A model generated the notes under the pieces. The model saw only the letters and a program-made list of their open reading frames with translations, did no database searches and was not told the origin of the DNA. Shown piece by piece: positions 40,191-58,445 of a DNA stretch of 64,000 nt. Made by a program: the position numbers and the translations under genes. Numbering within the stretch: the stretch's first letter is position 1; every line of letters begins with the position of its first letter. The DNA comes from Gemmatimonadetes bacterium T265. Lineage in GTDB: Bacteria > Gemmatimonadota > Gemmatimonadetes > Gemmatimonadales > Gemmatimonadaceae. The stretch lies in the NCBI GenBank assembly GCA_019973575.1, contig BPUI01000001.1, positions 2,120,342-2,184,341 of the forward strand, in the 5' to 3' direction.

Positions 40191-40679
40191 ATGACGGGCG
40201 ACCACCTGCTCGAGGGCCACCTCCACCGGTTCTGCGGCGGACGGTACCAGCTCGCGTCGGAACGGGTCACGATCCGGCTGAGCGGGATGCACGCCGAGGT
40301 CGACCGCGCGCTCTACCGCTGCGCGGCGTGCGGCGATGAGCAGCGCACGGTCGAGCAGCGCGAAGGCGCCGAACGCGACGCCGTTGCGCGCATGCGAGGC
40401 GAGCACGGACTACTCACGCCGCGCGAGATCCGCCGCCTGCGCGAGGATCTCGCGCTCAGCGCCGTGCAGCTCGGCGAACTCCTCTACGGGGTGCCCCGCG
40501 GGGTCGTCGAGGGTTGGGAACGCGGCCGGTATCTCCAGAACCGGGAGGCGGACGGGATGCTGCAGGCGTTGCGCGACCCGGAGGTGCTTGCGCGGAGGGC
40601 GGCGAAGGCGGGCGTGGTGCTGCCGACGGCGGAGCCGGCTGGCATGGCGGAGCTACATGGGGTCCGAGAGGTCACGTGA
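40191..40679 (+). CDS. MqsA-like zinc-binding HTH protein
   Basis: Protein of 162 aa. A zinc-ribbon-like knuckle YRCAACGDEQ (about residues 42 to 51) is followed by a helix-turn-helix of the MqsA/XRE type: LTPREIRRLREDLALSAVQL, then LLYGVPRGVVEGWERGRYLQ (about 75 to 115). MqsA antitoxins repress their own operon and neutralise MqsR, but no MqsR-like gene is adjacent, so this may be an orphan regulator. A Cys/His set near the N-terminus (HRFCGG) could complete the metal site. Start ATG 40191. Confidence 0.72.
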   Translation: MTGDHLLEGHLHRFCGGRYQLASERVTIRLSGMHAEVDRALYRCAACGDEQRTVEQREGAERDAVARMRGEHGLLTPREIRRLREDLALSAVQLGELLYGVPRGVVEGWERGRYLQNREADGMLQALRDPEVLARRAAKAGVVLPTAEPAGMAELHGVREVT

Positions 40680-40828: not shown

Positions 40829-43066
40829 ATGCCGCCGGCCGTCGTTCTACATCTTCACTTGCACCACCCTCCGCGCGAGGACCCGTGGCTGGGTCATCTT
40901 CCGCGCGACCCTGAGTCGTTTCCCGACCACGATCCGCTCGCTCGCGCGGAGCGGAAGTGTTACCGACCCCTTGCCGCCGCCCGGGTCACCGATCCGGACG
41001 GGCGGGTGCGGCGGATCGTCGACGTCTTCACGCACGCGAGCTTCGACGTCGCGCCGACCCTGCTCGCGTGGATGGCGCGGCGCACGCCGGCGACCTACGG
41101 CGCGGTGCTCGCCGCCGACCGGGCGAGCGCGCGGCGCACGGGGTACGGCAACGCGATCGCCCATCCGTACCACCATAGCATCCTTCCGCTGCTCAGCCGG
41201 CGTGACAAGGTGACCGAGGTACGGTGGGGGCTCGCGGAGTTCGCGCGCCACTTCGGGCGAGCGGCGGAGGGGATGTGGCTTCCCGAGATGGCCGTGGACG
41301 ACGAGACCCTCGACGTGCTCGCGCAGGAGGGCGTTCGGTTCACGCTGCTCGCGCCGCACCAACTCGACGGCGCGCCCCGGGGCGGGCGGCCCGGGCGCTA
41401 CCGTACCAGCGGCGGCCGCGAGCTCACGGTCTGCACCTACGACGCCGAGATCGGGCACGACGTCGCGTTCGGGCCGCTCGTCCGCGACGGGCTGGCGTGG
41501 GCGGCGCGACTGCGCGCCCGGCTGCATGAGCACGCCGACGTGCCATCGCCGGTCGTGGCCGTCGCGGCGAACGCGGAGACGTTCGGGCTGCACCACCGAT
41601 TCGGCGAGAAAGCGCTCGCCGGGGTGCTCGACGCGCTCGGCCGTCCGGGGCGCGGCTCCGGCGGCCTTCCCGAAGCGCCGACCCCGGTCGTGAACTTCGC
41701 TTCGGTGCTCGCGGCCGAGCCCGCGACCGACGAGCTCCGCGTGCACGCGCGCACGTCGTGGAGCTGTTTGCACGGGCTCGGGCGCTGGCAGGAGGCCTGC
41801 GGGTGCCGGTACGACGCGTCCACTGACCAGCGCTGGCGCGCGCCGCTCGTTGCCGCGCTGGCCGAGCTGCGGACCGCCGTCGACGAGCGGTTCGCGGCCG
41901 AGGGTGGGGCGCTCTTCGGGCACCTTCCGGGTGGGGCCGATGCGGCGCGCGACGCGTACAACGGCGCGCCCGCGACCGACCGCGTGCCGGCCGATGCACT
42001 CGCGCTCGCGGGCGGCGTGGTGCCGGAGACCGCCGACCCGGTGTGGGCGCGCGAGCTGCTCGAGATGGCCCGCGAAGCGCTCGCGATGGCCGACTCCGAC
42101 GGCATCGGGGCCGACGACCTCGCCGACCCCGCCACGCAGGCCGTCCTCGCCCACGCCGCCCGCGCGGCCACGCTCGCCGGGCCGCGCGCGGAGGTCGCCA
42201 GCGCGCGCCTCCGGCGCGCGCTGAGCATGTTGGCGGGGGATCACGCCGCGGCGGGCGCGGCGCGCGCCATCCTCGAGCGCCTGACGCCCGTCGGTCCGCC
42301 GCTCGCGGTTCGAGTCGCGGCCGGTGTGGCCGCGGTCGACGCGGTCGGCGCGCCGGACGGTCCGCCGCCCGCGTGGTGGGCCGACGTCGACCGCTCCGCG
42401 CCCAACGCGCCCGTCATCCACGTCGCCGACCGGCGGCTCGGCGACGGGGCGACCTACGTCGTCACCGTCGACGTCCCGAGTGCGAACGCCGCACCCGGAC
42501 GTGCGGTGCGGCGCGCCGACATCGACGCACGCGCGGTGACGATCCTCGTCCGCCCCGTCCCGGGCGCGCCCGGCGCGCGCCCCGCGTTCGCCGACGCCCT
42601 CGGCGCCGCCCTCAAGCTCGGCGATCTCCCCGAACCGGCCCGCGTCTGCGTCGAACTCGCGCTCCGGCGCGCCGTGGTGCAGCGGTTGCTCGACGCCGAG
42701 GATCGTGCGCGACTCGCGGCCGGAGAGGCCCGGCTGCGCGTGCTCGCCGGGGCCGCCCTCGTGCAGGCGATCGACGCGCTCGGCGAGGAGTTGCGCCACG
42801 AAGACTTTTTCGATTCGACGCTCGGACCGCGCAGTCCAAATGCGGCCGTGAGTGGTCCGGCCGTCGCGCGGGTCCTCGGCCTCGCCGACCTCGCCGAATC
42901 GGCCGGAGCGGGGACGCCGTTCGACGCGCAGACGGCGCTCTACCGGCTCGGCCTCTCGCTCCCGCGCGCCGCACGCGCGCAGCTCGCCCCGCTCGCGTGG
43001 CGGCTCGGCTTTTCGGCCCGCGGGTGGCGCGAGTTGGACGACGGCACGCCGGGTGCGGAGCGCTAG
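40829..43066 (+). CDS. DUF3536 / GH57-like glycoside hydrolase-fold protein
   Basis: Protein of 745 aa. The N-terminal half resembles the GH57 polysaccharide-deacetylase-like barrel (HLHLHHPPREDPWLGHLP start, IAHPYHHSILPLLSRRDK, AEGMWLPEMAVDDETLDVL; the last supplies the typical GMWLPE Glu). The second half fits DUF3536, with TSWSCLHGLGRWQEACGC and helical sequence. Related proteins occur with glycogen or glucan metabolism, but the substrate is unproven. ATG 40829 starts just before the barrel. It ends 7 bp before the first ATP-grasp gene, so it probably heads that operon. Confidence 0.82.
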   Translation: MPPAVVLHLHLHHPPREDPWLGHLPRDPESFPDHDPLARAERKCYRPLAAARVTDPDGRVRRIVDVFTHASFDVAPTLLAWMARRTPATYGAVLAADRASARRTGYGNAIAHPYHHSILPLLSRRDKVTEVRWGLAEFARHFGRAAEGMWLPEMAVDDETLDVLAQEGVRFTLLAPHQLDGAPRGGRPGRYRTSGGRELTVCTYDAEIGHDVAFGPLVRDGLAWAARLRARLHEHADVPSPVVAVAANAETFGLHHRFGEKALAGVLDALGRPGRGSGGLPEAPTPVVNFASVLAAEPATDELRVHARTSWSCLHGLGRWQEACGCRYDASTDQRWRAPLVAALAELRTAVDERFAAEGGALFGHLPGGADAARDAYNGAPATDRVPADALALAGGVVPETADPVWARELLEMAREALAMADSDGIGADDLADPATQAVLAHAARAATLAGPRAEVASARLRRALSMLAGDHAAAGAARAILERLTPVGPPLAVRVAAGVAAVDAVGAPDGPPPAWWADVDRSAPNAPVIHVADRRLGDGATYVVTVDVPSANAAPGRAVRRADIDARAVTILVRPVPGAPGARPAFADALGAALKLGDLPEPARVCVELALRRAVVQRLLDAEDRARLAAGEARLRVLAGAALVQAIDALGEELRHEDFFDSTLGPRSPNAAVSGPAVARVLGLADLAESAGAGTPFDAQTALYRLGLSLPRAARAQLAPLAWRLGFSARGWRELDDGTPGAER

Positions 43067-43073
43067 CGCTACA

Positions 43074-44300
43074 ATGCCCACGGTCATCTTCGCCGCGCCC
43101 TACCTCACGCCGAGCGCCGCGCGCATGGTGACGTCCGCCGCCTCGCTCCCCGGCGTGCGACTCGGCGTCATCTCGCAGGACCCGCTCGACAACGCGCCCG
43201 AGGACGTGCGGGCGGCGACCGCCCAACACTGGCGGGTCGACGACGTGCTCGACGTCGAGCAGCTCGCCGGCGCGGTCGCCGCGATCGGCGCGCGGATCGG
43301 CGCGCCGGACCGGCTGTTCGGCGCCTACGAGCAGCTGCAGGTGCCGCTCGCGGAGTTGCGCGAGCGGCTCGGGATCGTTGGGCTGCCGGTCGAGACCGCG
43401 CGCAACTTCCGCGACAAGGCGCGCATGAAGGAGATCCTGCGCGCCGCGGGCGTGCCGTGCGCGCGCCACGCGCTCGCGGAGACGGCGGCCGAGGCGCGCG
43501 CGTTCGCGGGGCGCGTCGGGTACCCCGTGGTCGTGAAGCCGCCGGCGGGGGCGGGCTCGGTCGCGACGTTCCGCGCGTCGAGCGACGCGGAGCTCGACGC
43601 GGCGCTCGCGGCCGCGCCCCCCGCGCCCGGCGACCCGGTGTTGCTCGAGGAGTTCGTCGTCGGGGACGAGCACTCGCTCGAGACGATCTCGCTCGACGGG
43701 CGCCCGGTGTGGCACTCGCTCACGCGCTACCATCCGACGCCGCTCGACGCGGTGCGGAACCCGTGGGTCCAGTGGTGCGTCGTGCTCCCGCGCGAGGCCG
43801 ACGACGCGCGCTACGACGACGCCCGGCGCGTCGGCGACGAGGCGCTCGCCGCGTTAGGCATGACCACGGGCCTCACGCACATGGAGTGGTTCCGGCGGCG
43901 CGACGGCTCAGTCGCGGTGAGCGAGGTCGCGGCGCGCCCGCCGGGCGCGCAGATCACGACGCTCGTCTCGCGCTCGACGGACACCGACTTCGTGCGGAGC
44001 TGGACGCGCGTGATGGTCGAGGGCGCGTTCGACCCGCCCGAACGGAAGTACGCGGCGGGCGTCGCGTTCCTCCGCGCGCAGGGGCGGCCGGGCGGCACCA
44101 TCCGCGGCACGCACGGGGTCGAGCGGCTCTCCGACGAGACGCGCGCCCTCGTCACCGACGCGCAGATGCCCTACGTCGGGTTCGGGGCGCGCCCCAGCTA
44201 CGAGGGCGACGGCTGGATCGTCGTGCGCCACCCCGAGACGGCGCCGGTCGAGCGCGCGCTCGCGGAGATCGTCTCCACCGTGCGCGTGGAGTTGGCGTGA
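43074..44300 (+). CDS. ATP-grasp ligase (first of the cluster)
   Basis: Enzyme of 408 aa of the ATP-grasp superfamily, expected to make an acyl-phosphate from a carboxylate and join it to an amine. N-terminal Rossmann-like part MPTVIFAAPYLTPSAARMVT; ATP-grasp core with FRDKARMKEILRAAGVPCAR (about residue 107), VGYPVVVKPPAGAGSVATFR (about 145) and LLEEFVVGDEHSLETISLDG, and the metal site near MEWFRRRDGSVAVSEVAARP. Start ATG 43074 is 7 bp after the DUF3536 gene. The similar length and layout of the gene at 44500 suggest an ancient duplication. Substrates unknown. Confidence 0.82.
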   Translation: MPTVIFAAPYLTPSAARMVTSAASLPGVRLGVISQDPLDNAPEDVRAATAQHWRVDDVLDVEQLAGAVAAIGARIGAPDRLFGAYEQLQVPLAELRERLGIVGLPVETARNFRDKARMKEILRAAGVPCARHALAETAAEARAFAGRVGYPVVVKPPAGAGSVATFRASSDAELDAALAAAPPAPGDPVLLEEFVVGDEHSLETISLDGRPVWHSLTRYHPTPLDAVRNPWVQWCVVLPREADDARYDDARRVGDEALAALGMTTGLTHMEWFRRRDGSVAVSEVAARPPGAQITTLVSRSTDTDFVRSWTRVMVEGAFDPPERKYAAGVAFLRAQGRPGGTIRGTHGVERLSDETRALVTDAQMPYVGFGARPSYEGDGWIVVRHPETAPVERALAEIVSTVRVELA

Positions 44301-44339
44301 CGGCGGCGCGGACGGCGTCCGGCTCGCTTCGCGGATCAC

Positions 44340-44454
44340 GTCATCCTGAGGGAGCGGAGCGACCGAAGGATCGCCGTCCGAGGAACGATCACTCGCGCGT
44401 GCGACGCGACCGCGGTCGCGAGGCGGAGCGATCCTTCGCTGCGCTCAGGATGAC
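44340..44454. repeat. Intergenic inverted repeat of the GTCATCCTGAG type
   Basis: The left arm GTCATCCTGAGGGAGCGGAG (from 44340), continuing GCGACCGAAGGATC, and the right arm ending at 44454 (complement GTCATCCTGAGCGCAGCGAA, continuing GGATC) are separated by about 50 bp. It lies between two ATP-grasp genes of one transcription direction, where its hairpin could reduce read-through. It is the less-diverged relative of the element at 29619-29725. Confidence 0.75.
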
Positions 44455-44499
44455 ACGAATCGGCAATAACTCACCACCAGCCTCACCTCCGCCCCGCCC

Positions 44500-45717
44500 A
44501 TGAACGTCCTCTTCATCGCCCCCGGCTACCCCGACGAGATGCCGCTCTTCGTGCGCGGCCTCGCGCGGCAGGGGGCGCGCGTCTTCGGCCTGAGCGACGT
44601 CGCCGAGTCGCAGCTGCCCGAGATGACGCGGCGCCACCTCGCGGGGTACGTGCAGGCCGACATCCGCGACGAGGCGGGCGCGGTGGGGACCGTACAGCGC
44701 GCGGCCGCCGGCCGCGTCACCTTCGACCGCGTGCTCTGCCTCTGGGAGCCGGGCGTGCTCCTCGCCGCGCGGCTCCGCGAGGCGTTAGGCGTGCCCGGGA
44801 TGGGCGTCGAGCAGGCGCGCCTCTTCCGCGACAAGGACCTGATGAAGCAGGCCGTCGCCGCGGCCGGCATCCGCGTGCCGTACCACCGGCGCGCGACGAC
44901 CGCCGCCGAGGTGCGCGAGGGCGTCGAGGCGGTCGGCTACCCGGCGATCATCAAGCCGATCGACGGCGCGGGCTCGATGGACACCTTCCGCGTCGACACC
45001 CCCGACGAGCTCGAGGCCGCGATCAAGCGCCTCGGCCACGTCGAGACCGTGAACGTCGAGGAGTTCATCGACGCCGAGGAGTTCACGTACGACACCGTGT
45101 GCGCCGGCGGGAAGATTCTCTTCGAGCACGTCGGCTACTACCGCCCGCGCCCGCTCGCGGCGCGCAGCAACGAGTGGATCTCGCCGCAGACGCTGTCGCT
45201 GCGCGACATCGACACCGACTGGGTGAAGGACGGCGTCGCCCAGGGGCACGACGTGCTCAAGGCGCTCGCCTTCGACACCGGCTTCACGCACATGGAGTGG
45301 TACCGCAAGGCGGACGGCGAGGTCGTCTTCGGCGAGATCGCCGCGCGCCCCGCGGGCGCGCGCACCGTCGACCTGATGAACTTCAACTCCGACATCGACC
45401 TGTTCACGGGCTACGCCGAGGCGGAGCTGAAGGGCACGTTCTCGCAGAACATCACGCGGGCGTACTACGTCGCGAACATCTTCAAGCGCGCGGAGGGGCA
45501 GGGGCGCATCGTCGCGATCGACGGGCTCGACGCGCTGCGCCGCCGGTTCGGGCCGGCGATCGTCAACGTCGACCTGCTGCCGGTCGGCGCGTCGCGGCGC
45601 GACTGGGTGCTCACGCTCATCTCCGACGGCTACGTGACCGTGCGCCACCCGGACAAGCAGACGCTCTGGGACATGGCCGACGCGGTGGGCACCGACCTGC
45701 GGCTCTACGCCGCGTGA
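44500..45717 (+). CDS. ATP-grasp ligase (second of the cluster)
   Basis: Enzyme of 405 aa. MNVLFIAPGYPDEMPLFVRG opens a Rossmann-like domain; the ATP-grasp core shows FRDKDLMKQAVAAAGIRVPY (about residue 108), VGYPAIIKPIDGAGSMDTFR (about 146), ETVNVEEFIDAEEFTYDTVC (about 185) and the metal-binding MEWYRKADGEVVFGEIAARP (about 266). It parallels the 43074 product through most of its length. Its stop overlaps the next gene (GTGA at 45714-45717), so they are translationally coupled. The TTA codon is in a GTTAGGC heptamer (44784). Carboxylate-amine or thiol ligase; substrates unknown. Confidence 0.85.
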   Translation: MNVLFIAPGYPDEMPLFVRGLARQGARVFGLSDVAESQLPEMTRRHLAGYVQADIRDEAGAVGTVQRAAAGRVTFDRVLCLWEPGVLLAARLREALGVPGMGVEQARLFRDKDLMKQAVAAAGIRVPYHRRATTAAEVREGVEAVGYPAIIKPIDGAGSMDTFRVDTPDELEAAIKRLGHVETVNVEEFIDAEEFTYDTVCAGGKILFEHVGYYRPRPLAARSNEWISPQTLSLRDIDTDWVKDGVAQGHDVLKALAFDTGFTHMEWYRKADGEVVFGEIAARPAGARTVDLMNFNSDIDLFTGYAEAELKGTFSQNITRAYYVANIFKRAEGQGRIVAIDGLDALRRRFGPAIVNVDLLPVGASRRDWVLTLISDGYVTVRHPDKQTLWDMADAVGTDLRLYAA

Positions 45718-46532
45718 CCACCACGCCGCGCCGCCGCTTCGCCCGGCGCCCGGCCGCCCCGGGCGCGATCGCCGTGCTGCGCGACGTCTTCTCGCCCGAG
45801 CTGCACAACCACCGCGACGTCTACGTCTACCTGCCCCCGTCCTATGGGCTCGGCGCGCCCGACGCGCGCTACCCGGTGATGTACATGCACGACGGGCAGA
45901 ACCTCTTCGACCCCGCGCTCAGCTTCGCCGGCGCGTGGCGCGTCGACCTCGCCATGCAGTCCGCCGCGCGCCTCGGCTACGAGGCGATCGTCGTCGGCGT
46001 GAGCAACACCGGCGGCTCGCGCATCGACGAGTACTCGCCGTTCTTCGACGAGCGCGTCGGCGGCGGCGGGACGGCGGACCGCTACGTCGACTTCCTGCTG
46101 CACACGCTCAAGCCCGTCGTCGACGCGCAGTTCCGCACTCGCCCGGAGCCCGCCGCGACCGGCGTGCTCGGCTCGTCGATGGGCGGCCTGGTGAGCGCGT
46201 ACGCGTTCTTTCGCGCGCCGCACGCGTTCCACATGTGCGGCATCATGAGCCCGGCGCTCTGGTTCGCGGGGCGCGCCATCCTGCCGTACATCGAGGCCGC
46301 CGACCCGCCGCCGGGGCGCGTCTGGCTCGACGTCGGCACCGCGGAGGGCGCGCGCACGGTGCACAACGTCCGCCTCCTGCGCGACCTGCTCGTCCGCAAG
46401 GGCTACGCGGAAGGCGGCGCCGCGGGCGGCGCGCGCGCGCTCAAGACCGTCATCGCCGCCCGCGACGCGCACAACGAAGCGGCCTGGGGCCGCCGCCTCA
46501 AGAAGGCCATCCCCTTCCTGCTCGGCTCTTAA
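45714..46532 (+). CDS. Esterase D / Fes-like alpha/beta hydrolase
   Basis: Hydrolase of 272 aa of the putative-esterase (Esterase D/enterochelin esterase-like) group. NHRDVYVYLPPSYGLG and YPVMYMHDGQNLFDP are characteristic; the nucleophile elbow is GVLGSSMGGLVSAYA (Ser about residue 162), and the last histidine is in AARDAHNEAAWGRRL (about 253). No signal peptide. Start GTG 45714 overlaps the ATP-grasp stop by 4 bp. A second, different hydrolase follows by 12 bp. It may hydrolyse an ester or amide of the cluster product or act as an acyl transferase. Confidence 0.85.
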   Translation: MTTTPRRRFARRPAAPGAIAVLRDVFSPELHNHRDVYVYLPPSYGLGAPDARYPVMYMHDGQNLFDPALSFAGAWRVDLAMQSAARLGYEAIVVGVSNTGGSRIDEYSPFFDERVGGGGTADRYVDFLLHTLKPVVDAQFRTRPEPAATGVLGSSMGGLVSAYAFFRAPHAFHMCGIMSPALWFAGRAILPYIEAADPPPGRVWLDVGTAEGARTVHNVRLLRDLLVRKGYAEGGAAGGARALKTVIAARDAHNEAAWGRRLKKAIPFLLGS

Positions 46533-46544
46533 CGCACGGCCCCG

Positions 46545-47267
46545 ATGCACACCGAACACCACCGCTGGCACAGCCCCGCGCTCGACGGCAAGCCGATGGA
46601 CCTGCTCGTCTACGGCCACGCCGGGGCGAAGCTGTTCGTCTTTCCCACCTCGATGGGGACGTACTACGAGTGGCCCGACCGCCGCATGCACTGGGTGCTG
46701 GGCGACCACCTCGAGCGCGGCTGGCTGCAGATGTACTGCCTGCACCACGTGCACGACGAGAGCTGGTACCGCCGCGACCTGCACGTCGGCGCGCGCGCGT
46801 GGCGCCACCTGCAGTTCGACAATTACGTGTACCACGAGGTCGTCCCGTTCAGCTACTCGCGGAACCCGAACGACTTCTTCATCGCGACTGGCGCGTCGTT
46901 AGGCGCGTACGACGCGGCGGTGTTCGCGATGCGCCACCCGGACGTCGTCCGCCGCCTCGTCGGGATGAGCGGGAGCTACGACATCCTCCGCCTCACGCAC
47001 GGCCAGCGCGACGGCACGGTCGACCAGGTGAACCCGATGGCGCTCGCCGCGGCGCCGATGAGCCACGACAAGCTCGCGCTCCACCGCCGGCAGGACCTCA
47101 TCATGGCGATCGGGCTCGACGACCCCGCGCTCGGCAACAACCGCGCGTTCTCGGGGCTGCTCTGGTCGCGGGGGATCGGCAACGCGCTCCGCGAGTGGCA
47201 GGGCTTCGCGCACGACTGGCCGTGGTGGGAGCGGATGCTCCGCCTGTACGTCGGCGGCCACGACTAA
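46545..47267 (+). CDS. Esterase-like alpha/beta hydrolase, second type
   Basis: Hydrolase-fold protein of 240 aa. It opens HRWHSPALDGKPMDLLVYGH and has LFVFPTSMGTYYEWPDRRM, then the nucleophile elbow FIATGASLGAYDAAVFAMRH (Ser about residue 118), and LVGMSGSYDILR. It resembles the small esterase family that commonly sits next to ATP-grasp genes in this type of locus (recalled, not searched). A histidine near the C-terminus (FAHDWPWWERML) could complete the triad. Co-oriented and spaced 12 and 21 bp from its neighbours. Substrate unknown. Confidence 0.8.
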   Translation: MHTEHHRWHSPALDGKPMDLLVYGHAGAKLFVFPTSMGTYYEWPDRRMHWVLGDHLERGWLQMYCLHHVHDESWYRRDLHVGARAWRHLQFDNYVYHEVVPFSYSRNPNDFFIATGASLGAYDAAVFAMRHPDVVRRLVGMSGSYDILRLTHGQRDGTVDQVNPMALAAAPMSHDKLALHRRQDLIMAIGLDDPALGNNRAFSGLLWSRGIGNALREWQGFAHDWPWWERMLRLYVGGHD

Positions 47268-47288
47268 TCCCCTCACCCTTCTCGACCG

Positions 47289-48671
47289 ATGAGCGACAAG
47301 AAAAAGCAGCCTCGCATCAAGAAGGGCGGCGCGAAGTCGTCCGCCGCCGCGGGCCCCCTCACCCCGCAGGGCGACCCGGCCCAGCCCGGCGGTGAGAAGC
47401 CGATCGGGGCGCCGATCGACGTGCCGATTGGCGCGCCGAGCGACGCGGGCCGGGGCGCGGCGCTCAGCACCGGCCCCGCCCCGTCGTTCGAGGCGCCCGA
47501 CGTGTACGCGCCCGAGGTGCCCGACCACGCGCCGGGCGCTCCCGTCGTTGACGCGACGGCGCACCCCGCGGGCGGCGCGTCCGCGGCAGTTCCCGAGATG
47601 CGCCCGCCCGAAGCGCCGAGCGCGGTCGACGTGGCCGCGGCGGCCGAGACCCTCGTCACCGAGGACGGCGGCGCGACGGCGCCGATCGGCACGCCGGCGG
47701 GCGCCCCGGCCGTGCACCGCGCCACGCGCGACGCGCGCGTCGGTCTCTTTGTGGGGCGCGAGTGGTCGTTCCCGCCGGAGTTCATGAAGGCCGTCGAGCG
47801 GCGCGACGCCGGCGTCGTCGCGGAGTTCGCGAAGATCGGCGCGCCGCACTTCGACGAGCCGCCCAAGTACGACCTGCTCATCGACCGCATCTCGCACGAG
47901 GTGCCGACCTACCGCAGCTATCTCAAGCAGGCCGCGCTCCGCGGCGCGGCGGTCGTCAACAACCCGTTCATGTGGACCGCCGACGACAAGTTCTTCGGCG
48001 CCGCGCTCGCCGACCGGCTGGGCGTCGCGAGCCCGAAGACGGTCGTGCTGCCCAACCGCGAGTACGTCCCGGGGATCGTCCCCGAGGAGTCGCTCCGCAA
48101 CCTCGAGTACCCGCTCGACTGGACGGGGATCGTCGAGTACGTCGGCATGCCGTGCATCCTGAAGGACGCGCACGGGGGCGGGTGGAAGGAGGTCTACGTC
48201 TGCCGCACGGCCGAAGAGCTCCTGCACAACTACAACACGAGCGGCCTGCTCACGATGATCGTGCAGGAGTTCATCGAGTTCGAGCACTTCGTGCGCTGCC
48301 TCGTGATCGGGCGCGACGAGGTGCTGCCGATGAAGTACGACCCGAAGCACCGCAAGTACGTCGTCGACCACGCGCACCTGAGCGCCGAACTCGGTGCCAA
48401 GATCGTCCGCGACGCGCGGGCGCTCTGCCACGCGTTAGGCTACGACATGAACTCGATGGAGTTCGCGATCCGGGGCGGCGTCCCGTACGCGATCGACTTC
48501 ATGAACCCGGCGCCCGACATGGACATCTACTCGCTCACGCCGACGTACTTCGAGTGGGCGGTCGAGCACATGGCCGACATGGCCGTGCGCCTGGCGACGG
48601 CGGTGCGCGACGGCCGCCACCGCGCCGTCGACCCCGCGTGGGTGTCGCTGTTCGGCGGGGCTGCGGTGTGA
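47289..48671 (+). CDS. ATP-grasp (RimK-like) protein with long disordered N-terminus
   Basis: Protein of 460 aa. The first 150 residues are low complexity: a basic start MSDKKKQPRIKKGGAKSS, then Pro/Ala/Gly-rich sequence with PIGAPIDVPIGAP. From about 150 follows an ordered region: VGLFVGREWSFPPEFMKAV, PPKYDLLIDRISHEVPTYRS, the ATP-grasp-type lysine segment GMPCILKDAHGGGWKEVYVC (about 300), MIVQEFIEFEHFVRCLVIGR and MEFAIRGGVPYAIDFMNPAP (metal site). Its GTGA stop overlap with the next gene links it to the fourth ATP-grasp protein. The disordered tail may dock a partner or tether the enzyme. Function unknown beyond ATP-dependent ligation. Confidence 0.78.
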   Translation: MSDKKKQPRIKKGGAKSSAAAGPLTPQGDPAQPGGEKPIGAPIDVPIGAPSDAGRGAALSTGPAPSFEAPDVYAPEVPDHAPGAPVVDATAHPAGGASAAVPEMRPPEAPSAVDVAAAAETLVTEDGGATAPIGTPAGAPAVHRATRDARVGLFVGREWSFPPEFMKAVERRDAGVVAEFAKIGAPHFDEPPKYDLLIDRISHEVPTYRSYLKQAALRGAAVVNNPFMWTADDKFFGAALADRLGVASPKTVVLPNREYVPGIVPEESLRNLEYPLDWTGIVEYVGMPCILKDAHGGGWKEVYVCRTAEELLHNYNTSGLLTMIVQEFIEFEHFVRCLVIGRDEVLPMKYDPKHRKYVVDHAHLSAELGAKIVRDARALCHALGYDMNSMEFAIRGGVPYAIDFMNPAPDMDIYSLTPTYFEWAVEHMADMAVRLATAVRDGRHRAVDPAWVSLFGGAAV

Positions 48672-50107
48672 GCGCCGTCCCGAGCGCGGTCGCGACCGCG
48701 GCCGCGTCTGCGGCTCCGGCCGACGCCATCTCGGCCTACCACGCGCTGCTCGAGGGCACCGCGGGCGCGCAGCTCGCAGCCGACACGCAGGGCGCGCTCG
48801 AGACCGCGCTCGCCCGGCGCGGGCTGATCTTTGGCACGCGGCCGCTCTGCACCGTCGTGCGGCCGCGCTTCTTCACACCCGCACAGCACGCCGCGCTCGG
48901 GCGGCGCATCGCGGGGCTCATGCGCGCCTTCAACGCCGCGCACCGCGCCGCGCTCGCCAATCCCGGCGTGCGCGCGCAGTTCCGGCTCGAGGAGTGGGAG
49001 GAGGCGCTGCTCACGACGGGCCCGCGCGCCGCCGTCTCCAGTCCGACCGCGCGCCTCGACGCGTTCATCGTCGACACCGCGGGCGACGGCGGCAGCTTCG
49101 CCCTCACCGAGGTCAACGGCGAGACGCCCGCGGGCGCGGGCTTCAACGACACGCTCACCGAGACGTTCCTCGAGCTGCCGGCGATGCGCGCCTTCGTGCG
49201 CCGCTGGCACGTGCTCCCCGTCTTCGCCCACTACGGCATCGTCGAGGCGGTGCTCGGCGCGTGGCGCCGTTGGGCCGATGCGGCGTCGCGCCCGACGCGC
49301 GGCGTCGCGCCCCGCGTCGCGATCCTCGACTGGGACGACGTGCCGACGCGGCTCGAGTTCCTCATGTTCCAGTCGTTCTTTCAGGCGGCGGGGTGCGACT
49401 GCGTGATCGCCGACCCGCGCGCGGCCACCTTCGACGCGAACGCCGGCGCCCTCGTCCTCGGCGGCGCGCCGATCGACGTGATCTACAAGCGCGTGCTCCT
49501 CACCGAGCTCGTCGAGCGCGCCGGCGTCGAGTGCGACGTGCTCCGCGCCTGGCAGGCCGGCGCCGTGTGCATGGTCAACCCCCCCGACGGCAAGATCCTG
49601 CACAAGAAGGCGTCGCTCGCCGTGCTCTCCGACGAGCGCAACGCGGGGCTGTTCGACGCGGCCGCGCGGGCCGCGATCGCCGACGGCATCCCGTGGACGC
49701 GCGTCGTCGAGGAGCGCCGCACGGTGCATGACGGCCGCGAGGTCGACCTCGTCCCGTACCTCACCGCCAACCGCGAGCGCTTCGTCCTGAAGCCCAACGA
49801 CGAGTACGGCGGCACGGGCATCGTGCTCGGCTGGACGGTCGACGCGGGCGAGTGGGAGCAGGCGGTGGCGCGCGCGCTCGCCGAGCCGTACGTGGTGCAG
49901 GAGCGCGTGCCGATCCCGTTCGAGGCGTACCCGAGCGTCGTCGACGGCGAGGTGCACCTGCTCGACCGGCTGATCGACACCGCCCCGTACGTGACCGACG
50001 GCGTGGTGATGGAGGGGCTGCTCTCGCGCCTCTCGACGGCGGCGCTGCTCAACGTGACGGCCGGCGGCGGGTCGCAGGTTCCCAACTTCGTCGTCGTGCC
50101 GCGCTGA
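48668..50107 (+). CDS. ATP-grasp-like protein, circularly permuted type
   Basis: Protein of 479 aa. After an Ala-rich start it has LTEVNGETPAGAGFNDTLTE (about residue 140), PRVAILDWDDVPTRLEFLMF, IDVIYKRVLLTELVERAG, MVNPPDGKILHKKASLAVLS (about 305) and FVLKPNDEYGGTGIVLGWTV (about 375), followed by YVVQERVPIPFEA. The order of acidic and Lys/Gly-rich motifs suggests a circularly permuted ATP-grasp fold; this is a judgement from motif order only. GTG 48668 overlaps the preceding stop by 4 bp. It ends ATAGGG-type VTAGGGSQVPNFVVVPR. Partner enzyme of the 47289 protein by context. Confidence 0.72.
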   Translation: MSAVPSAVATAAASAAPADAISAYHALLEGTAGAQLAADTQGALETALARRGLIFGTRPLCTVVRPRFFTPAQHAALGRRIAGLMRAFNAAHRAALANPGVRAQFRLEEWEEALLTTGPRAAVSSPTARLDAFIVDTAGDGGSFALTEVNGETPAGAGFNDTLTETFLELPAMRAFVRRWHVLPVFAHYGIVEAVLGAWRRWADAASRPTRGVAPRVAILDWDDVPTRLEFLMFQSFFQAAGCDCVIADPRAATFDANAGALVLGGAPIDVIYKRVLLTELVERAGVECDVLRAWQAGAVCMVNPPDGKILHKKASLAVLSDERNAGLFDAAARAAIADGIPWTRVVEERRTVHDGREVDLVPYLTANRERFVLKPNDEYGGTGIVLGWTVDAGEWEQAVARALAEPYVVQERVPIPFEAYPSVVDGEVHLLDRLIDTAPYVTDGVVMEGLLSRLSTAALLNVTAGGGSQVPNFVVVPR

Positions 50108-50225
50108 GCGCATCGCCCGAACACGAGCGCCAGCCCCCCTTGCGTCGTGGCACGGTTTGCGTAACACAAGAGCTGCGGCCCGATCCGTTTCAGCCGTCGC
50201 CATCCCGTCCCGTCGAGGTCCCGCC

Positions 50226-51563
50226 ATGATGAAGCCGCCTTCGCTCACGCTCGGGGTCGAAGAGGAGTACCAGATCGTCGACCCGAAGACGCGCGCCCTC
50301 AAGAGCTACATCAACCAGATCCTGGAACAGGCGCCGGGAGACGATGCGCCGGTCAAGCCGGAGCTGCACCAATCCATCGTCGAGGTCGGCACGCCGCCGT
50401 GTGAGACGCCGGCGCAGGTCCGCGACGAGCTCCGGCGGCTGCGCGGGACGGTTCAGGGGATCCTGCAGCCCGACGGCCTCACGATCGCCTCGGCCGGCAG
50501 CCACCCGTTCAGCCGGTGGTGGGACCAGGAGATCACGCCGCTGGAGCGGTACGAGGGCGTGAAGCACGACATGGGCGACCTCGCGCACCGGCTGCTCATC
50601 TTTGGGATGCACATCCACGTCGGCGTGGAGGACCGCGAGTTCGCCGTCGACGTCGTGAACGCGGCGCGCTACTTCCTGCCGCACCTGCTCTGCCTGACGA
50701 CGAGCTCGCCGTTCTGGATCGGGCGCAACACGGGGCTCAAGTCGTACCGCTCGACGGTGTTCCGCGGCTTCCCGCGGAGCGGCATCCCGCCCCGCATCCC
50801 GAGCTGGGGGGCGTTCCAGCAGTACGTGCAGGTGCTCACCGACACGCACTGCATCCCGAACGGCTCGAAGATCTGGTGGGACGTGCGGCCGCACTACAAG
50901 TACCCGACGGTCGAGTTCCGCGTCTGCGACGCGTGCACGCGGGTGGACGAGGCCGTGTGCGCGGCGGCCATCGTGCAGGCGCTCGTGCTCAAGCTCTACA
51001 AGCTGCGCCGCGACAACATGACGTGGCGCGACTACGCCCCGCAGCTCGTCGACGAGAACAAGTGGCGCGCGATGCGCTTCGGCCTGTCCGGGAAGCTCAT
51101 CGACTTCGGGAAGCAGGAAGAATGTCCCGCGCCGCAGCTCATCCGCGAGATGATCGACTGGTTCCTGGGCGATGCGGTGGACGAGCTCGGGTCGCGGCGC
51201 GAGATCGAGTACGCGTACCGCATTCTCGACGAGGGCTCGAGCGCGGACCGGCAGCTCGCCACGTTCGAGCGCACCGGGAGTCTGGAGGCCGTCGTCGATC
51301 AGATCATCGCCGAGACCGCGGAAGGCGTCGCCGTGGTGCCGCACGCCGTGGTGCCGCACGCCGCGGTGCGGGACGCCGCCGTGCAGGCCGCCGCGCAGCG
51401 TGCGGCGGCCGAGGCGGCGGCGAGCAAGTCGGACGACGAGGCGCTGGAGCGGCGGGCCGGCGGCGACCGGCGGGCCCGGCCGCGCCCGGAATCTCCTCTG
51501 GTCACGCCGGCCATCCGGATCGGCGACCTCGACATCGGGCAGCCGGTGGCCGGCGTACCCTGA
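50226..51563 (+). CDS. Carboxylate-amine ligase, GCS2 / YbdK type
   Basis: Member of the glutamate-cysteine ligase type 2 family, 445 aa (usual about 370 to 400). The motifs are clear: LTLGVEEEYQIVDPKTRALK, ELHQSIVEVGTPPCETPAQV, IASAGSHPFSRWWDQE, HIHVGVEDREFAVDVVN, SSPFWIGRNTGLKSYRSTVF and YPTVEFRVCDACTRVDEAVC. Such enzymes activate a carboxylate with ATP and couple it to an amine; E. coli YbdK has weak glutamate-cysteine ligase activity. A C-terminal tail (about 375 to 445) adds VPHAVVPHAAVRDAAV repeats and a charged, disordered end. It is separated from the ATP-grasp genes by 118 bp. Start ATG 50226. Confidence 0.9.
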   Translation: MMKPPSLTLGVEEEYQIVDPKTRALKSYINQILEQAPGDDAPVKPELHQSIVEVGTPPCETPAQVRDELRRLRGTVQGILQPDGLTIASAGSHPFSRWWDQEITPLERYEGVKHDMGDLAHRLLIFGMHIHVGVEDREFAVDVVNAARYFLPHLLCLTTSSPFWIGRNTGLKSYRSTVFRGFPRSGIPPRIPSWGAFQQYVQVLTDTHCIPNGSKIWWDVRPHYKYPTVEFRVCDACTRVDEAVCAAAIVQALVLKLYKLRRDNMTWRDYAPQLVDENKWRAMRFGLSGKLIDFGKQEECPAPQLIREMIDWFLGDAVDELGSRREIEYAYRILDEGSSADRQLATFERTGSLEAVVDQIIAETAEGVAVVPHAVVPHAAVRDAAVQAAAQRAAAEAAASKSDDEALERRAGGDRRARPRPESPLVTPAIRIGDLDIGQPVAGVP

Positions 51564-51639
51564 GCGAACGCGAATCGTCGAACGGGGGTATCATTAGGGC
51601 CCTTTCGAGTCCCGATTCCGCAACGACGACAAACGCCAG

Positions 51640-51686
51640 ACCCCCGCGGTCGTCCCGCTGCACGCCGCGCGGCCGGGCGCGGGGGT
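51640..51686 (+). terminator. Stem-loop in front of the gamma-glutamyl hydrolase gene
   Basis: ACCCCCGCG (51640-51648) and CGCGGGGGT (51678-51686) form a perfect 9-bp stem closed by 29 nt that can pair further internally. It ends 13 bp before the ATG at 51700 and is followed by TCTGCTTCG. It may terminate transcripts from the GCS2 gene, or act as an attenuator or as part of the leader of the hydrolase. Confidence 0.5.
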
Positions 51687-51699
51687 TCTGCTTCGCGAG

Positions 51700-52530
51700 A
51701 TGAGGATGTCCGTTTCTCACGCCACCACGCCCACGCGTCCGGTCTGTCGGACGGCGTCCCGCCCCGTGATCGGGGTGACGACGCAGACGCTGCACGCCAT
51801 CGCCGGGATCCCCGAAGGGCTGCCCGAGAGCTGGGTGATGAACCAGCGGTACTTCCGCGCCGTGGTCGAGATGGGCGCCGCGCCGTGGATGATTCCGCTC
51901 TTGCACGACGACGTCGACACCTTGCGCGCGATCTACGAACGCCTGGACGGGATTCTGATCCCGGGCGGGGTGGACATGGATCCCGACACGTACGGCGAGG
52001 AGATCCTCCCCGAGACCGGCCGCCTCGACCCGCCGCGCGACTGCGTCGAGCTGCAGCTCGTGCGCTGGGCCTGGGAGGACGGCATGCCCGTGCTCGGGCT
52101 CTGTCGCGGCGCGCAGGTGATCAACGTCGCGCGCGGCGGCTCGCTCTGGCAGGACATCCCGTCGCAGTGGAAGGATCCGAACGGCGGCGAGACGTTGATG
52201 CACGACTGCTACCCGACCAAGGGGTTCGCGCGCACGCACCACGCGCACGAGGTCGAGCTGAAAGACGGCACGCGCCTCCACGCCGCGATGCCACGCGCGT
52301 CGGTGCCCGTCAACAGCATGCACCACCAGTCGGTGAAGCAGGTGGGCGAGGGGCTGGTCATCTCCGCGCACGCGCCCGACGGCGTGGTCGAAGCGGTCGA
52401 GGCGGACCGGGACGCGTTCATGGTCGGCGTCCAGTGGCACCCCGAGGTGTTCGAGGTGCACGACCCGTTTACGCGGCATTTGTTCCGGGATTTTATGGGA
52501 GCGGCGGAGGGGTTTGCGAAGGCGGCGTGA
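51700..52530 (+). CDS. Gamma-glutamyl-gamma-aminobutyrate hydrolase-like (class I amidotransferase)
   Basis: Peptidase C26-type enzyme of 276 aa related to PuuD. It cleaves gamma-glutamyl amides. GVTTQTLHAIAGIPEGLPES begins the fold; LDGILIPGGVDMDPDTYG is conserved; the nucleophile Cys lies in MPVLGLCRGAQVINVARGGS (about residue 129) and the His/Glu pair in VGVQWHPEVFE (about 245). NSMHHQSVKQVG is the family's central motif. Start ATG 51700, or the second ATG at 51706. Following a GCS2-type ligase, it suggests that a gamma-glutamyl-type amide is both made and released. A palindrome beyond the stop ends transcription toward the convergent nth gene. Confidence 0.9.
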   Translation: MRMSVSHATTPTRPVCRTASRPVIGVTTQTLHAIAGIPEGLPESWVMNQRYFRAVVEMGAAPWMIPLLHDDVDTLRAIYERLDGILIPGGVDMDPDTYGEEILPETGRLDPPRDCVELQLVRWAWEDGMPVLGLCRGAQVINVARGGSLWQDIPSQWKDPNGGETLMHDCYPTKGFARTHHAHEVELKDGTRLHAAMPRASVPVNSMHHQSVKQVGEGLVISAHAPDGVVEAVEADRDAFMVGVQWHPEVFEVHDPFTRHLFRDFMGAAEGFAKAA

Positions 52531-53885: not shown

Positions 53886-53957
<72 letters not shown>

Positions 53958-54135
53958 CCTTGCAGGACAACGACTTACGTCGCGAGGTGGTTCGCGCGTG
54001 GTCCAGATCCGGGTCCAGTTACCCCCGATCGCCCCGTGCTATTGCGTCCCGCGCGCCCCGCGTTTGCCTACCGGCGGCGCGGGTCGTCGCGCGTCAGGGG
54101 TCTCAACAGCCTGCCCGCGCGGGCCGCAGGAGCCT

Positions 54136-55344
54136 TCACGCCGTCCGCGGCACGCCGGACGGCGCGGGGCCGGGCTCGTCGACGAGGGAGCGGAGGTCGT
54201 CGCTCACGAGGTGCGCGTACGCCATCGTCGTTCGGATGTCCGCGTGCCCCATCGCCTGCTGGATGAGCGCGGGACTCTTCCCCGCCTGCAGCCACGTCGT
54301 CACGCGCCGGTGCCGGAGGTCGTGGCGCCGGAACTCGGCCGGGAGCTTGGCCCGGCGCGCGGCGCCGGCGACGGCCGCGTCGAGCGTGGCAATCCGCTCC
54401 CCCGCGCGGTGGTGTCGGCGCGTCGTGAGGTGGTGGAAGAGCCAGGGCGTGTGGTGTGCGGCGCCGTCGCGCCCCGGGTAGGTCGCGAGGCGGTATGCGG
54501 CCGCGTGCGCCCGGAGCGCGGCCACGAGGCGCGCCGTCATCGGCACGTCGCGCCCCTCGCCGCTCTTCGTCCGGTGCGCCTTGCCGCTCGCCACGGTGAG
54601 GAAGCCGCGGGCGAAGTCGACGTGCTCCCACCGGAGCCACAGCGCCTCCGACTGCGCCCGGAGGCCCGTCTCGCCGAGCACGAGTAGGTAGGCGGCGAGC
54701 ATGGGGCGCCCGACGGCCGCGCCGAGCAGCGCCTCATACTGCGCCGCGTCGAGGATGACCGGCGCGTGCGGGTCGCCCTTCGCCGCCTTCGCGAGCGTCA
54801 CCGGGTTCGTCTCGCGCAGCTCGCGCTCCGTCGCGACGGCGAACAAGCGGTGCAGGACGGCGCGGTCCTTCGCGACCGTCCGGAGCGTCACCGGGTCGGT
54901 CCGGCCCTTCCGGCGCGGCGCCGTGCGGCGCCAGGCGAGGAAGGCGACGACGTCGGCCCGCGTGACCGCGTCCACGCGCGGGTTCCGGCGCTGTAGGACG
55001 AAGAACGCGCGGATGGCCGCGAGCGAGCCACGGTAGGCGGTCTGCGTGCCCGGCGCGCGGGTGGGCAGCACGTCGCGCTCGTAGAGCGCACAGAGGTCGG
55101 CGATGCGGACGAGCACCCGCGCGGTCCGGGCGCGGCGCGCGCCGGCACGACTCCCGGTCGCCTCGAGGAGCTCGCGGTGCTTGGCCGTCGCGAACTGGCG
55201 CACGGCCTCGATCGCGGTGCCGGGCGGGAAGGTGAAACTGTGCCGCCGGCCACCGACCGCGAGGCGCAGGCGGTACGCGTCGCCCCGCGCGGTGATCGTG
55301 CCCGGCGTCGACTTCGCCGCGTCAGCCTTCCGGGGGCGGGGCAT
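54136..55344 (-). CDS. Tyrosine recombinase / integrase of the tRNA-Cys island
   Basis: Phage-type integrase of 402 aa that recombines attachment sites. A short Arg/Lys-rich N-terminal arm-binding part is followed by a core-binding SAM-like domain (about 100 to 190) and the catalytic domain: Arg in LGETGLRAQSEALWLRW, HDLRHRRVTTWLQAG (His-x-x-Arg), QAMGHADIRTTMAYAHLV with the nucleophile Tyr near residue 377. ATG 55344 (MPRPRKADAAKSTPG) is chosen; a longer start overlaps the tail of upstream DNA. It points at the tRNA-Cys, the usual layout of an island integrase. Confidence 0.93.
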   Translation of the reverse strand: MPRPRKADAAKSTPGTITARGDAYRLRLAVGGRRHSFTFPPGTAIEAVRQFATAKHRELLEATGSRAGARRARTARVLVRIADLCALYERDVLPTRAPGTQTAYRGSLAAIRAFFVLQRRNPRVDAVTRADVVAFLAWRRTAPRRKGRTDPVTLRTVAKDRAVLHRLFAVATERELRETNPVTLAKAAKGDPHAPVILDAAQYEALLGAAVGRPMLAAYLLVLGETGLRAQSEALWLRWEHVDFARGFLTVASGKAHRTKSGEGRDVPMTARLVAALRAHAAAYRLATYPGRDGAAHHTPWLFHHLTTRRHHRAGERIATLDAAVAGAARRAKLPAEFRRHDLRHRRVTTWLQAGKSPALIQQAMGHADIRTTMAYAHLVSDDLRSLVDEPGPAPSGVPRTA

Positions 55345-55419
55345 TGAGTCCTGCCCTCTTGGGGTCGCGCTTCGGTTCGGGTTCAGAGCCCGCTGTCGGC
55401 TCGGGCGCCCCGTGGCCAC

Positions 55420-56091
55420 TCACCGCTTGGTTCGACTCGCCCGGTCTCCCTCCTCAAGCACCGCCATCCATTCAGCCTCTTCGCGCTCTCGGTCGGTCCT
55501 AGTCCAAACGCCGACGTTGAACCGATCGTCAGTCTTCCCAAGTCGATCGAGCCGATCAGCTATCCGTGCAAGCGCCCGTGCCGCCGCTGCATCTGGCGAT
55601 TCCTCGACACCCACGATCCTCAGGAACGCTGAAGCGTTCAGTGTGAAGTATTCGCTCCGATCGGGTGCGTTTGGTGCTGCCGCATACGTGACCCGGAGTG
55701 TGAAGGCTTTCCGCTCGCGCTTCACGATGTTTCGGACAGTACCAGCGACGGTGCGAATCGCATCGCCGGCGCCGAGCACATCAAGCCCGGTCGTTACGAG
55801 CCCCAACTCTGAGATCGTCCGGTCTTGGAGAGTTGTCCAGTCGTCGCCTACGATGTGTAAGCGGACGCGGTATGCGGTCCCGGCGCCGACATTCCGAACG
55901 ACGAGATTGACGACTTGGAATGCGTGTGGGGACTGTTCGAGGTACACGATGACGGCGGGGTCTGTCTGCGCCTGGCGCAACCGACTAGTTTCGCGCAGCT
56001 GACGCCACGTCAGCCCCGTGTACACCGCGTTCACACCCAAACCGATTGCGGCGATCACCAAAGCGCCGAGCGCGATCTGCGAGTCGGTCAC
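55420..56091 (-). CDS. Hypothetical membrane-anchored protein of the island
   Basis: Protein of 223 aa. One N-terminal membrane helix (SQIALGALVIAAIGLGVNAV, about 4 to 23) is followed by a short charged region (LTWRQLRETSRLRQAQTDPA) and a cytosolic beta-rich domain (VNLVVRNVGAGTAYRVRLHI) ending in a charged helix. Such N-anchored beta-sandwich proteins are common in islands, but no family is named here. GC is lower than in host genes, with A/T-ending codons frequent. GTG 56091 overlaps the stop of the preceding small gene (GTGA), so they are coupled. Possibly a defence or conjugation accessory; unproven. Confidence 0.68.
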   Translation of the reverse strand: MTDSQIALGALVIAAIGLGVNAVYTGLTWRQLRETSRLRQAQTDPAVIVYLEQSPHAFQVVNLVVRNVGAGTAYRVRLHIVGDDWTTLQDRTISELGLVTTGLDVLGAGDAIRTVAGTVRNIVKRERKAFTLRVTYAAAPNAPDRSEYFTLNASAFLRIVGVEESPDAAAARALARIADRLDRLGKTDDRFNVGVWTRTDREREEAEWMAVLEEGDRASRTKR

Positions 56092-56294
56092 TCCGGGGCC
56101 GTTCCGTGCAACGCTGTCCGGGACGCGCTCCTCCTCGGTCCGGTGAACGGAATCCGGTCCACCGCGTCGACGAACGCGCGCACCTCGGGCGACGGCGGCG
56201 CGTCGTGCTCGCGCCACACGCCCCGGGCGTCGAACGTACCAGCCGCGGTAAGCGGAGCCGGGGCGCGCGCGTTTTTGGCGGGCCGATTGCTCAT
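56088..56294 (-). CDS. Small hypothetical protein coupled to the membrane protein
   Basis: Open frame of 68 aa (MSNRPAKNARAPAPLTAAGT, then FDARGVWREHDAPPSPEVRA and FVDAVDRIPFTGPRR). Its TGA lies inside the GTGA overlap with the membrane-protein start. The middle part (PPSPEVRAFVDAVDRIPF) looks like a short amphipathic helix. No family; the overlap is the main support that it is a gene. Confidence 0.5.
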   Translation of the reverse strand: MSNRPAKNARAPAPLTAAGTFDARGVWREHDAPPSPEVRAFVDAVDRIPFTGPRRSASRTALHGTAPE

Positions 56295-56365
56295 GGCACA
56301 TAAGGTGTGGGCGGGGAAGAACGGGGGCTCGTAGAGCAGGGCGATCGACGACCGGCTTCTTGCGG

Positions 56366-56869
56366 TCAGCCGCGTGAACGCCAGCCCGTGCTGAAATCGA
56401 GGCGCCGTACCAATTCGAACGTGTTACACGATTCGAGCTGAAACTGCCGACAGACATCGGGGACGTGACGGTTCGCGCGGGTCTGCTTCGGCTTCGAGGC
56501 TTCCGTCGTAACCACACACGCCCGGGGAGAAGCGCTGAGAGCATGAGCGATGAGAAACGGGTCACGCCCAAGCTTCTCGATCTCGACGTCCGTTAGGTCT
56601 CGTGCATACCCTTCGGCGACAACTCGCTGCACCACCTCTGCGGCGACGTCGGACGGGTATACAAGCGCAGACTTGACGGCACTCCTTCGGAGCCACTCGC
56701 CGAGCTCATCTTTCGACCCCGAAGCCTCTTCGTAGGTCTCCTCTGGCATCGCGACACGGTCCAGCATCGCTTGGGCGAGCAGCCACTCCCAGAACTCCGG
56801 AACGCGTGCGATCGGGTAATAATCGCGCGCTGCGTCTATCAACACATTTGCATCTAGTAGGTAGAGCAT
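56366..56869 (-). CDS. DUF4411 PIN-like toxin candidate
   Basis: Protein of 167 aa. It opens with LYLLDANVLIDAARDYYPIA, the PIN-domain nuclease start with an acidic metal ligand (D6), then VPEFWEWLLAQAMLDRVAMP, PEETYEEASGSKDELGEWL, and later acidic positions LGRDPFLIAHALSASPRACV and VVTTEASKPKQTR, as in DUF4411 proteins. PIN toxins cut RNA. The gene follows the XRE-ImmA gene by 14 bp, a standard toxin-antitoxin-like pairing. GC is lower than in the host genes. Start ATG 56869. Confidence 0.85.
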   Translation of the reverse strand: MLYLLDANVLIDAARDYYPIARVPEFWEWLLAQAMLDRVAMPEETYEEASGSKDELGEWLRRSAVKSALVYPSDVAAEVVQRVVAEGYARDLTDVEIEKLGRDPFLIAHALSASPRACVVTTEASKPKQTRANRHVPDVCRQFQLESCNTFELVRRLDFSTGWRSRG

Positions 56870-56883
56870 TCGGGCGGCTCGAC

Positions 56884-58086: not shown

Positions 58087-58445
58087 ACGGCAGTCGTGGG
58101 GCGCTAAATCGTCACTGGCGCAGGGCGACCTGCGTTCGCAATGCGACACGGCGGAGACCGAACCGTGTGCGTCTGCGAAAACTAGCCGCCGCAGTGGAAC
58201 GCGGCGGACTCAGCGGTGGAAGATCCTCGCACCCGCCCCAGCTATCGTCTAGGCCGGGGTGGTGGGTCTAGGTAGCCGCGGTACAGGCTCGACGACGGTG
58301 GCCGTCCGGCACGCGCCTCTCGAACATGCCGGCGGTCGCGAGAAGCGTCCTTCTCGCAACCGAGCAAGTGCCGTAGGTTGGGGACGTGTTCGGGGCCGTC
58401 CGTCTGGACCGCAACGCCTCCTGTTCCGCCTGCCACCAGCGCCCC
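58087..58445. other. Divergent intergenic region of the island
   Basis: No gene is supported between the divergent XRE-ImmA gene and the small ORF at 58446. It must contain promoters in both directions; a sequence around 58355-58400 (AACCGAGCAAG, GTAGGTTGGGG) is AT-richer. A hairpin lies at 58338-58357. Confidence 0.4.
58338..58357 (+). other. Perfect hairpin in the island intergenic region
   Basis: GCGAGAAG-CGTC-CTTCTCGC is an 8-bp perfect stem with a 4-nt loop, extended after one mismatch by GGT/ACC. It may be a terminator, an operator or an RNA element; nothing else decides. Confidence 0.4.

Follow-up and report, generated by a model that had tools for sequence, protein, structure and literature searches.

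The window, a 64,000-nucleotide stretch of the genome of Gemmatimonadetes bacterium T265 (assembly GCA_019973575.1, contig BPUI01000001.1, positions 2,120,342 to 2,184,341), carries a block of nine genes, g1 to g9, that probably directs the synthesis of a small amide or oligopeptide of gamma-glutamyl type by a route independent of both the ribosome and nonribosomal peptide synthetases (NRPS). Five of its genes encode ligases (g2, g3, g6, g7 and g8), which belong to four families and have their active sites intact. Since the block genes are conserved across phyla and co-inherited, their clustering is far beyond chance. As these peptide-type ligases are linked and co-inherited, the block qualifies by gene content as a candidate NRPS-independent amidoligase cluster.

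Gene content and predicted folds

The nine open reading frames (ORFs) lie contiguously on the plus strand at 40829-52530 of the window, with the following features:

40829..43066, plus strand: g1, GH57-type glycoside hydrolase with DUF3536 (Pfam GH57 47.8 bits, DUF3536 43.1 bits)
43074..44300, plus strand: g2, predicted L-amino-acid-ligase (Lal/BacD)-type ATP-grasp protein (Pfam ATP-grasp 41.7 bits)
44301..44499, no strand: g2-g3 spacer of 199 nt, a long imperfect hairpin resembling a repetitive extragenic palindrome or miniature inverted-repeat transposable element (REP/MITE-like; DNA fold z -3.6)
44500..45717, plus strand: g3, second predicted L-amino-acid-ligase-type ATP-grasp protein, paralogue of g2 (4wd3 at 4.1e-25, 3vot at 5.7e-24, BacD)
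45714..46532, plus strand: g4, alpha/beta-hydrolase esterase (PF00756; Pfam 101 bits)
46545..47267, plus strand: g5, divergent alpha/beta-hydrolase, core gene (Esterase 18.1 bits, below the cut-off of 22)
47289..48671, plus strand: g6, RimK/LysX/Ddl-like ATP-grasp protein with a low-complexity N-extension, core gene (rimK_fam 34.5 bits)
48668..50107, plus strand: g7, predicted circularly permuted ATP-grasp ligase of the glutathionylspermidine/eukaryotic glutathione synthetase fold, core gene (model pLDDT 90)
50226..51563, plus strand: g8, GCS2 carboxylate-amine ligase, PRK13515 (NF010039 505.9 bits, cut-off 371)
51700..52530, plus strand: g9, Peptidase C26 gamma-glutamyl-amide hydrolase, PuuD-like (Pfam 208.5 bits, cut-off 20.5)

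An earlier reading of the letters and ORFs alone (the sequence-only reading) had described nine plus-strand genes with 4-nt overlaps, and this layout was confirmed: g3 and g4 overlap at 45714-45717, g6 and g7 at 48668-48671, and the remaining gaps are 7, 199, 12, 21, 118 and 136 nt. The start of g2 was corrected to 43074. Pfam cut-offs were exceeded by GH57 and DUF3536 in g1, ATP-grasp-type domains in g2 and g3, Esterase in g4, GCS2 in g8 and Peptidase_C26 in g9; for g5, g6 and g7 no family model in Pfam or NCBIfam reached its cut-off. Catalytic motifs are intact across the block's enzymes. The four ATP-grasp proteins of at least three architectures that the sequence-only reading had counted are indeed there, g2 and g3 being of one type and g6 and g7 being assigned by their folds. 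Structure prediction, which it had proposed, gave an ATP-grasp fold for both g6 and g7.

Because its best solved structural relatives are YjfC/YgiC (Z 30), glutathionylspermidine synthetase (GspS, Z 28), the plant, human and yeast glutathione synthetases (Z 27-29) and, from the E-64 pathway of fungi, Cp1B (Z 25.4, 16% identity), g7 is predicted to be a circularly permuted ATP-grasp ligase. The model was computed with AlphaFold2 from an input alignment of 19 relatives; the fold matches span 350-425 residues at Z 25-30, and the ATP-grasp P-loop and the RxD/ExN residues are present. Cp1B lost all or most of its activity when R139, D141, E163 or N165 was substituted (PMC12568646). Judged by motif and order, these residues look equivalent to R129, D131, E148 and N150 of g7, which do not vary among Gemmatimonadota or within the distant set. 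The fold (Z 28-30) and ExN/RxD-type active-site motifs are likewise shared with GspS, YgiC, YjfC and eukaryotic glutathione synthetase, but identity to these is 12-16%, g7 lacks the amidase domain and the substrates need not match.

The CP_ATPgrasp_2 family (PF14403) gives 26.5 bits with g7, short of the gathering threshold of 32, and 21-26 bits with four distant copies; wherever a bit score is given, it lies below the cut-off. By sequence comparison, the relatedness of g7 to this family is not in doubt, since 19/19 Gemmatimonadota copies match it at E values up to 1 (best 2.9e-9). Iyer and colleagues reportedly defined the family in 2009 from a Roseiflexus protein whose gene neighbours those of an alpha/beta hydrolase and a GCS2-like ligase. 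The literature searched yielded nothing on RoseRS_2616/PF14403 and mentioned DUF3536 in a single paper. A CP_ATPgrasp_1/alpha-E system was rejected, PF04174 being absent from the window's genome.

The second core ligase, g6, has no Pfam match. Its predicted structure (pLDDT 84; best Foldseek matches ArgX and Ddl) indicates a standard-topology ATP-grasp near ArgX, LysX, Ddl and RimK, and the P-loop KDAHGGGW and the DFMN metal motif are invariant. A Pro/Ala/Gly-rich N-extension (about residues 1-143, window 47289-47717) is missing from most orthologues and is shorter in L031, the closest relative in the alignment.

By their best similarity to solved ligases and a conserved metal/arginine motif, g2 and g3 are of Lal/BacD type in predicted activity. 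The best solved relatives of g2 by profile are the L-amino acid ligases 4wd3 (4.5e-22) and 3vot; 4wd3, BL00235 and BacD have the E...ExxxR pattern in common with the pair, which differs from the known ligases in consisting of two co-inherited paralogues of remote similarity. A 17-mer from the hairpin arm of their spacer occurs just twice in the genome.

The remaining enzymes are better placed. The GCS2 ligase g8 carries the GVEEE motif and has YbdK (1r8g, 3e-54) as its nearest solved relative, while in g9, whose solved relatives are Lin1909 and PuuD, Cys135, His247 and Glu249 are invariant. Both thus have the catalytic residues of their families, but g9 differs from PuuD in scoring 121.4 bits against the PuuD equivalog NF008471 (cut-off 266) and in standing in a block without putrescine pathway genes. 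Of the two esterase-like hydrolases in the sequence-only reading, g4 was upheld (GxSxG at residue 153); g5 is below the family cut-off, yet its nearest solved relatives are PF00756 esterases, and its Ser118 and His223 are invariant.

Conservation and co-inheritance

To survey the block in other genomes, 80 loci were compared, the best 80 of at least 543 g6 relatives from one genome-collection scan. The gene g6 was present in 79/80 loci, g7 in 70, g5 in 64, g8 in 47, g4 and g9 in 34 each, and g2/g3 in about 10. The core g5-g6-g7 recurs in Gemmatimonadota, Chloroflexota, Planctomycetota, Acidobacteriota and Rubrobacter. Where the contig left room, g7 lay directly 3' of g6 in 65/68 loci (Gemmatimonadota 40/40, Chloroflexota 17/17, Planctomycetota 3/6, Acidobacteriota, Rubrobacter and unassigned loci together 5/5), and g5 stood within 1.5 kb upstream of the pair in most. 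In one planctomycetal exception (L149), g7 and g8 are found together elsewhere in the genome. A tree of g6 groups largely by phylum, with few exceptions. All 20 distant core genomes that were checked, picked largely for a non-adjacent GCS2 gene, encode a GCS2 protein over the PRK13515 cut-off; the gene is often unlinked to the core, usually so in Chloroflexota.

The neighbourhoods of 20 relatives kept most of the set in shuffled order, with g8 and g9 swapped or g2-g3 moved, and g4-g5 is inverted in some other loci. A single fixed nine-gene operon was therefore rejected, as order and membership vary among relatives. The sequence-only reading had named a block conserved across phyla as support; such a block exists for g5-g6-g7 with GCS2, often accompanied by C26 and g4, whereas the nine-gene order is not conserved.

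A phylogenetic profile was drawn up for 59 genomes of the order, including the window's own. The genes g7 and g8 were both present in 27 genomes and both absent from 31; g7 never occurred alone, and g8 did so once, in a 74%-complete genome (Fisher p 5.8e-16). Inside the family alone the association gave p 1.6e-8. The genes g2 and g3 were found in 15/59 genomes, all of them GCS2-positive (Fisher p 9e-7), and were adjacent and paired in 15/15. In several genomes the pair sits on a different contig or is separated from the core by 40-190 kb; its link to GCS2 is therefore not merely positional. It is an accessory pair that roughly every second core-positive relative has, and the co-occurrence of all four ATP-grasp proteins, which the sequence-only reading had proposed to look for, is too strong a demand. 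Pairwise divergences of g4 to g9 correlate with r 0.54-0.76, and 0/300 permutations were as high, which shows co-inheritance, although species relatedness accounts for part of the correlation.

Proposed pathway and competing explanations

The enzyme families imply acyl-phosphate ligation, ester chemistry and gamma-glutamyl cleavage, and hence we propose that a gamma-glutamyl-type amide or oligopeptide is assembled step by step and trimmed. The following scheme is inferred throughout, from the substrates and the sequence of reactions to the end product and its function. The GCS2 ligase g8 would phosphorylate a carboxylate, probably the gamma-carboxylate of Glu, and couple it to an amine. Next, g7 and g6 would each form an acyl phosphate from a carboxylate and condense it with another amine or amino acid. 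Hydrolysis or transfer of an acyl ester may fall to g5 and g4. Removal of gamma-glutamyl groups by g9 would serve deprotection or turnover, and in a subset of Gemmatimonadota g2 and g3 may act as two Lal-type dipeptide ligases that feed or lengthen the chain.

Several points weigh against this pathway. The Fisher tests ignore phylogeny, the distant loci are nearly throughout contigs of metagenome-assembled genomes, and g5 and g7 are sub-threshold in Pfam. The ligases could also serve more than one product. Moreover, the unlinked g8 homologues of Chloroflexota (e.g. at L135:6344-7867 and L145:5782-7425) are only 46-57% identical to g8, and their genes often neighbour one for an M17 leucyl aminopeptidase (7/17 loci) or an Amidohydro_3 protein (4/17). 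As to mechanism, these neighbours again point to peptide turnover.

It is unlikely that g6 and g7 instead modify a protein or a ribosomally made carrier by adding amino acids or small peptides, and that g9 and g5 undo the modification. The structural neighbourhood of g6 (RimK, LysX, ArgX) does include protein-modifying ligases and LysW carrier systems, but the relatives of g7 and g8 act on small molecules, and no conserved small carrier or precursor ORF was found across the 80 loci, a search that an unlinked target would escape. The only clusters among the small ORFs were formed by apparent antisense shadow ORFs, none of them spanning phyla. The sequence-only reading, which had seen no obvious precursor peptide, was thus borne out. 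A graspetide or other ribosomally synthesised and post-translationally modified peptide (RiPP), or a Pup-like system, was rejected on the same search for a precursor or modifier peptide near the ligases.

Repeated ligation might alternatively build a polymer for storage, either a poly-amino-acid reserve or an alpha-glucan-linked peptide, which we consider rather improbable. RimK-type ligases are capable of making poly-Glu, and in several Gemmatimonadota the block adjoins genes of glycogen synthesis: in L058 and L077, GlgA and the GH57 branching enzyme are followed by g1, g2, g3, g4, g5 and g6 and then by the genes as far as g8, and L031, L037 and L060 are organised in a related way. The GlgA and branching enzyme genes lie directly 5' of g1/g2 at L058:1-5227, L077:57-4850, L037:15722-19471 and L060:78-3543. 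However, the core loci examined outside Gemmatimonadota showed neither g2/g3 nor a glycogen module next to them, no GlgA over cut-off was found in the window's genome, though g1 is retained there, and DUF3536 is frequent in core-negative genomes. In the 59-genome profile, DUF3536 accompanies g3 in 15/15 genomes but is found in 12 core-negative genomes too, and its link to g2/g3 is weaker than the other profile links. As the glycogen module was seen beside Gemmatimonadota cores alone and the window's genome has no GlgA over cut-off, g1 is treated as a peripheral, loosely attached partner. Its candidacy as a core member, which the sequence-only reading had implied by counting the DUF3536 gene into the block, was rejected because it goes with the glycogen genes. 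That reading had counted it as refutation if the genes were scattered in relatives or each matched a separate pathway such as glutathione, D-Ala-D-Ala or glycogen metabolism; this applies to g1 alone, through its place beside glycogen synthase and the GH57 branching enzyme in relatives.

A glutathione-like low-molecular-weight thiol, with GCS2 making gamma-Glu-Cys and g7 adding the third residue, is very unlikely. It would account for a GCS2 protein and an enzyme of glutathione synthetase fold in one block, and for the similarity of g7 to the human, yeast and plant enzymes. Against it, g7 is closest to YjfC/YgiC/GspS, g8 is of the YbdK/PRK13515 type, and the extra ligases and the esterases would be left over. 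GshB over the TIGR01380 cut-off was found in 0/59 genomes, whereas BshA over cut-off was found in 53/59, including the window's own and irrespective of the core; the genomes of the order thus appear, from their gene content, to use bacillithiol, and a canonical glutathione pathway was rejected.

That the genes are independent housekeeping or salvage enzymes and chance neighbours is the most improbable explanation, for although gene order is variable and g2/g3, g4, g9 and g1 come and go, membership survives rearrangement, the g7/g8 profile is near-perfect and divergence is correlated. A defence system (PADLOC match for 0/9 proteins) and plasmid cargo (no plasmid match for g6, only distant ones for g7, at most 34% identity) were rejected.

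The gamma-glutamyl-type pathway may also have a broader form, which we regard as possible though doubtful: a widespread, unrecognised class in several phyla, in which three to five co-inherited ligases make a gamma-glutamyl-type oligoamide. In Gemmatimonadota its production would be tied to that of alpha-glucan, and it might serve, for instance, as a combined reserve of carbon and nitrogen, as a compatible solute or as a peptide bound to glucan. A multi-ligase unit kept across at least five phyla, mostly in uncultured soil and water lineages, would point to a metabolite that is important to the cells and has been missed by annotation. The small core (g5 to g8) makes direct in vitro testing feasible, and g7 would be a bacterial addition to the few characterised stand-alone ligases of the glutathionylspermidine synthetase fold.

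Relation to known systems and flanking genes

According to PMC4431377, which cites Iyer et al. 2009, operons that combine ATP-grasp and COOH-NH2 ligases for peptide metabolites are an established computational theme. GCS2-like ligases have also been noted near amidotransferase-like peptidases (PMC2588565). The operons of Iyer et al. 2009 reportedly hold likewise several unrelated peptide ligases, hydrolases and peptidases in one neighbourhood without NRPS, and part of the core may be covered there. What sets the block apart from the operons so described is its RimK-like ligase, its pair of Lal-type ligases, its C26 gene and its glycogen link, and its g7 stays below the CP_ATPgrasp_2 cut-off in every scored copy. 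The E-64 pathway likewise forms amides stepwise without NRPS, using the amide bond synthetase Cp1D and the ATP-grasp Cp1B, which is folded like g7 and whose catalytic residues appear to correspond to those of g7 (PMC12568646). It differs in being fungal, in its epoxysuccinate substrate and in lacking GCS2, a RimK-like ligase and C26, and there is no orthology. No characterised pathway with the block's gene set was found in the literature searched. The block is thus a new variant within a category already known computationally; the ribosome-independent amide or oligopeptide pathway of the sequence-only reading is partly supported and stays the best inference, but the idea of such operons was already in the literature.

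Upstream of g1 lies an MqsA/HTH-like gene (window 40191-40679; TIGR03830 53.8 bits, below the cut-off of 61.8), of which a 71% identical copy occupies the same place in one relative (L032:18699-19115). Downstream of g9, the plus-strand run ends at a minus-strand HhH-GPD repair gene. Just beyond, window 53886-58149 holds tRNA-Cys, followed by a tyrosine integrase (54136-55419, minus strand), a DUF4411 protein and an IrrE-like M78 protein, and resembles the border of an integrated element.

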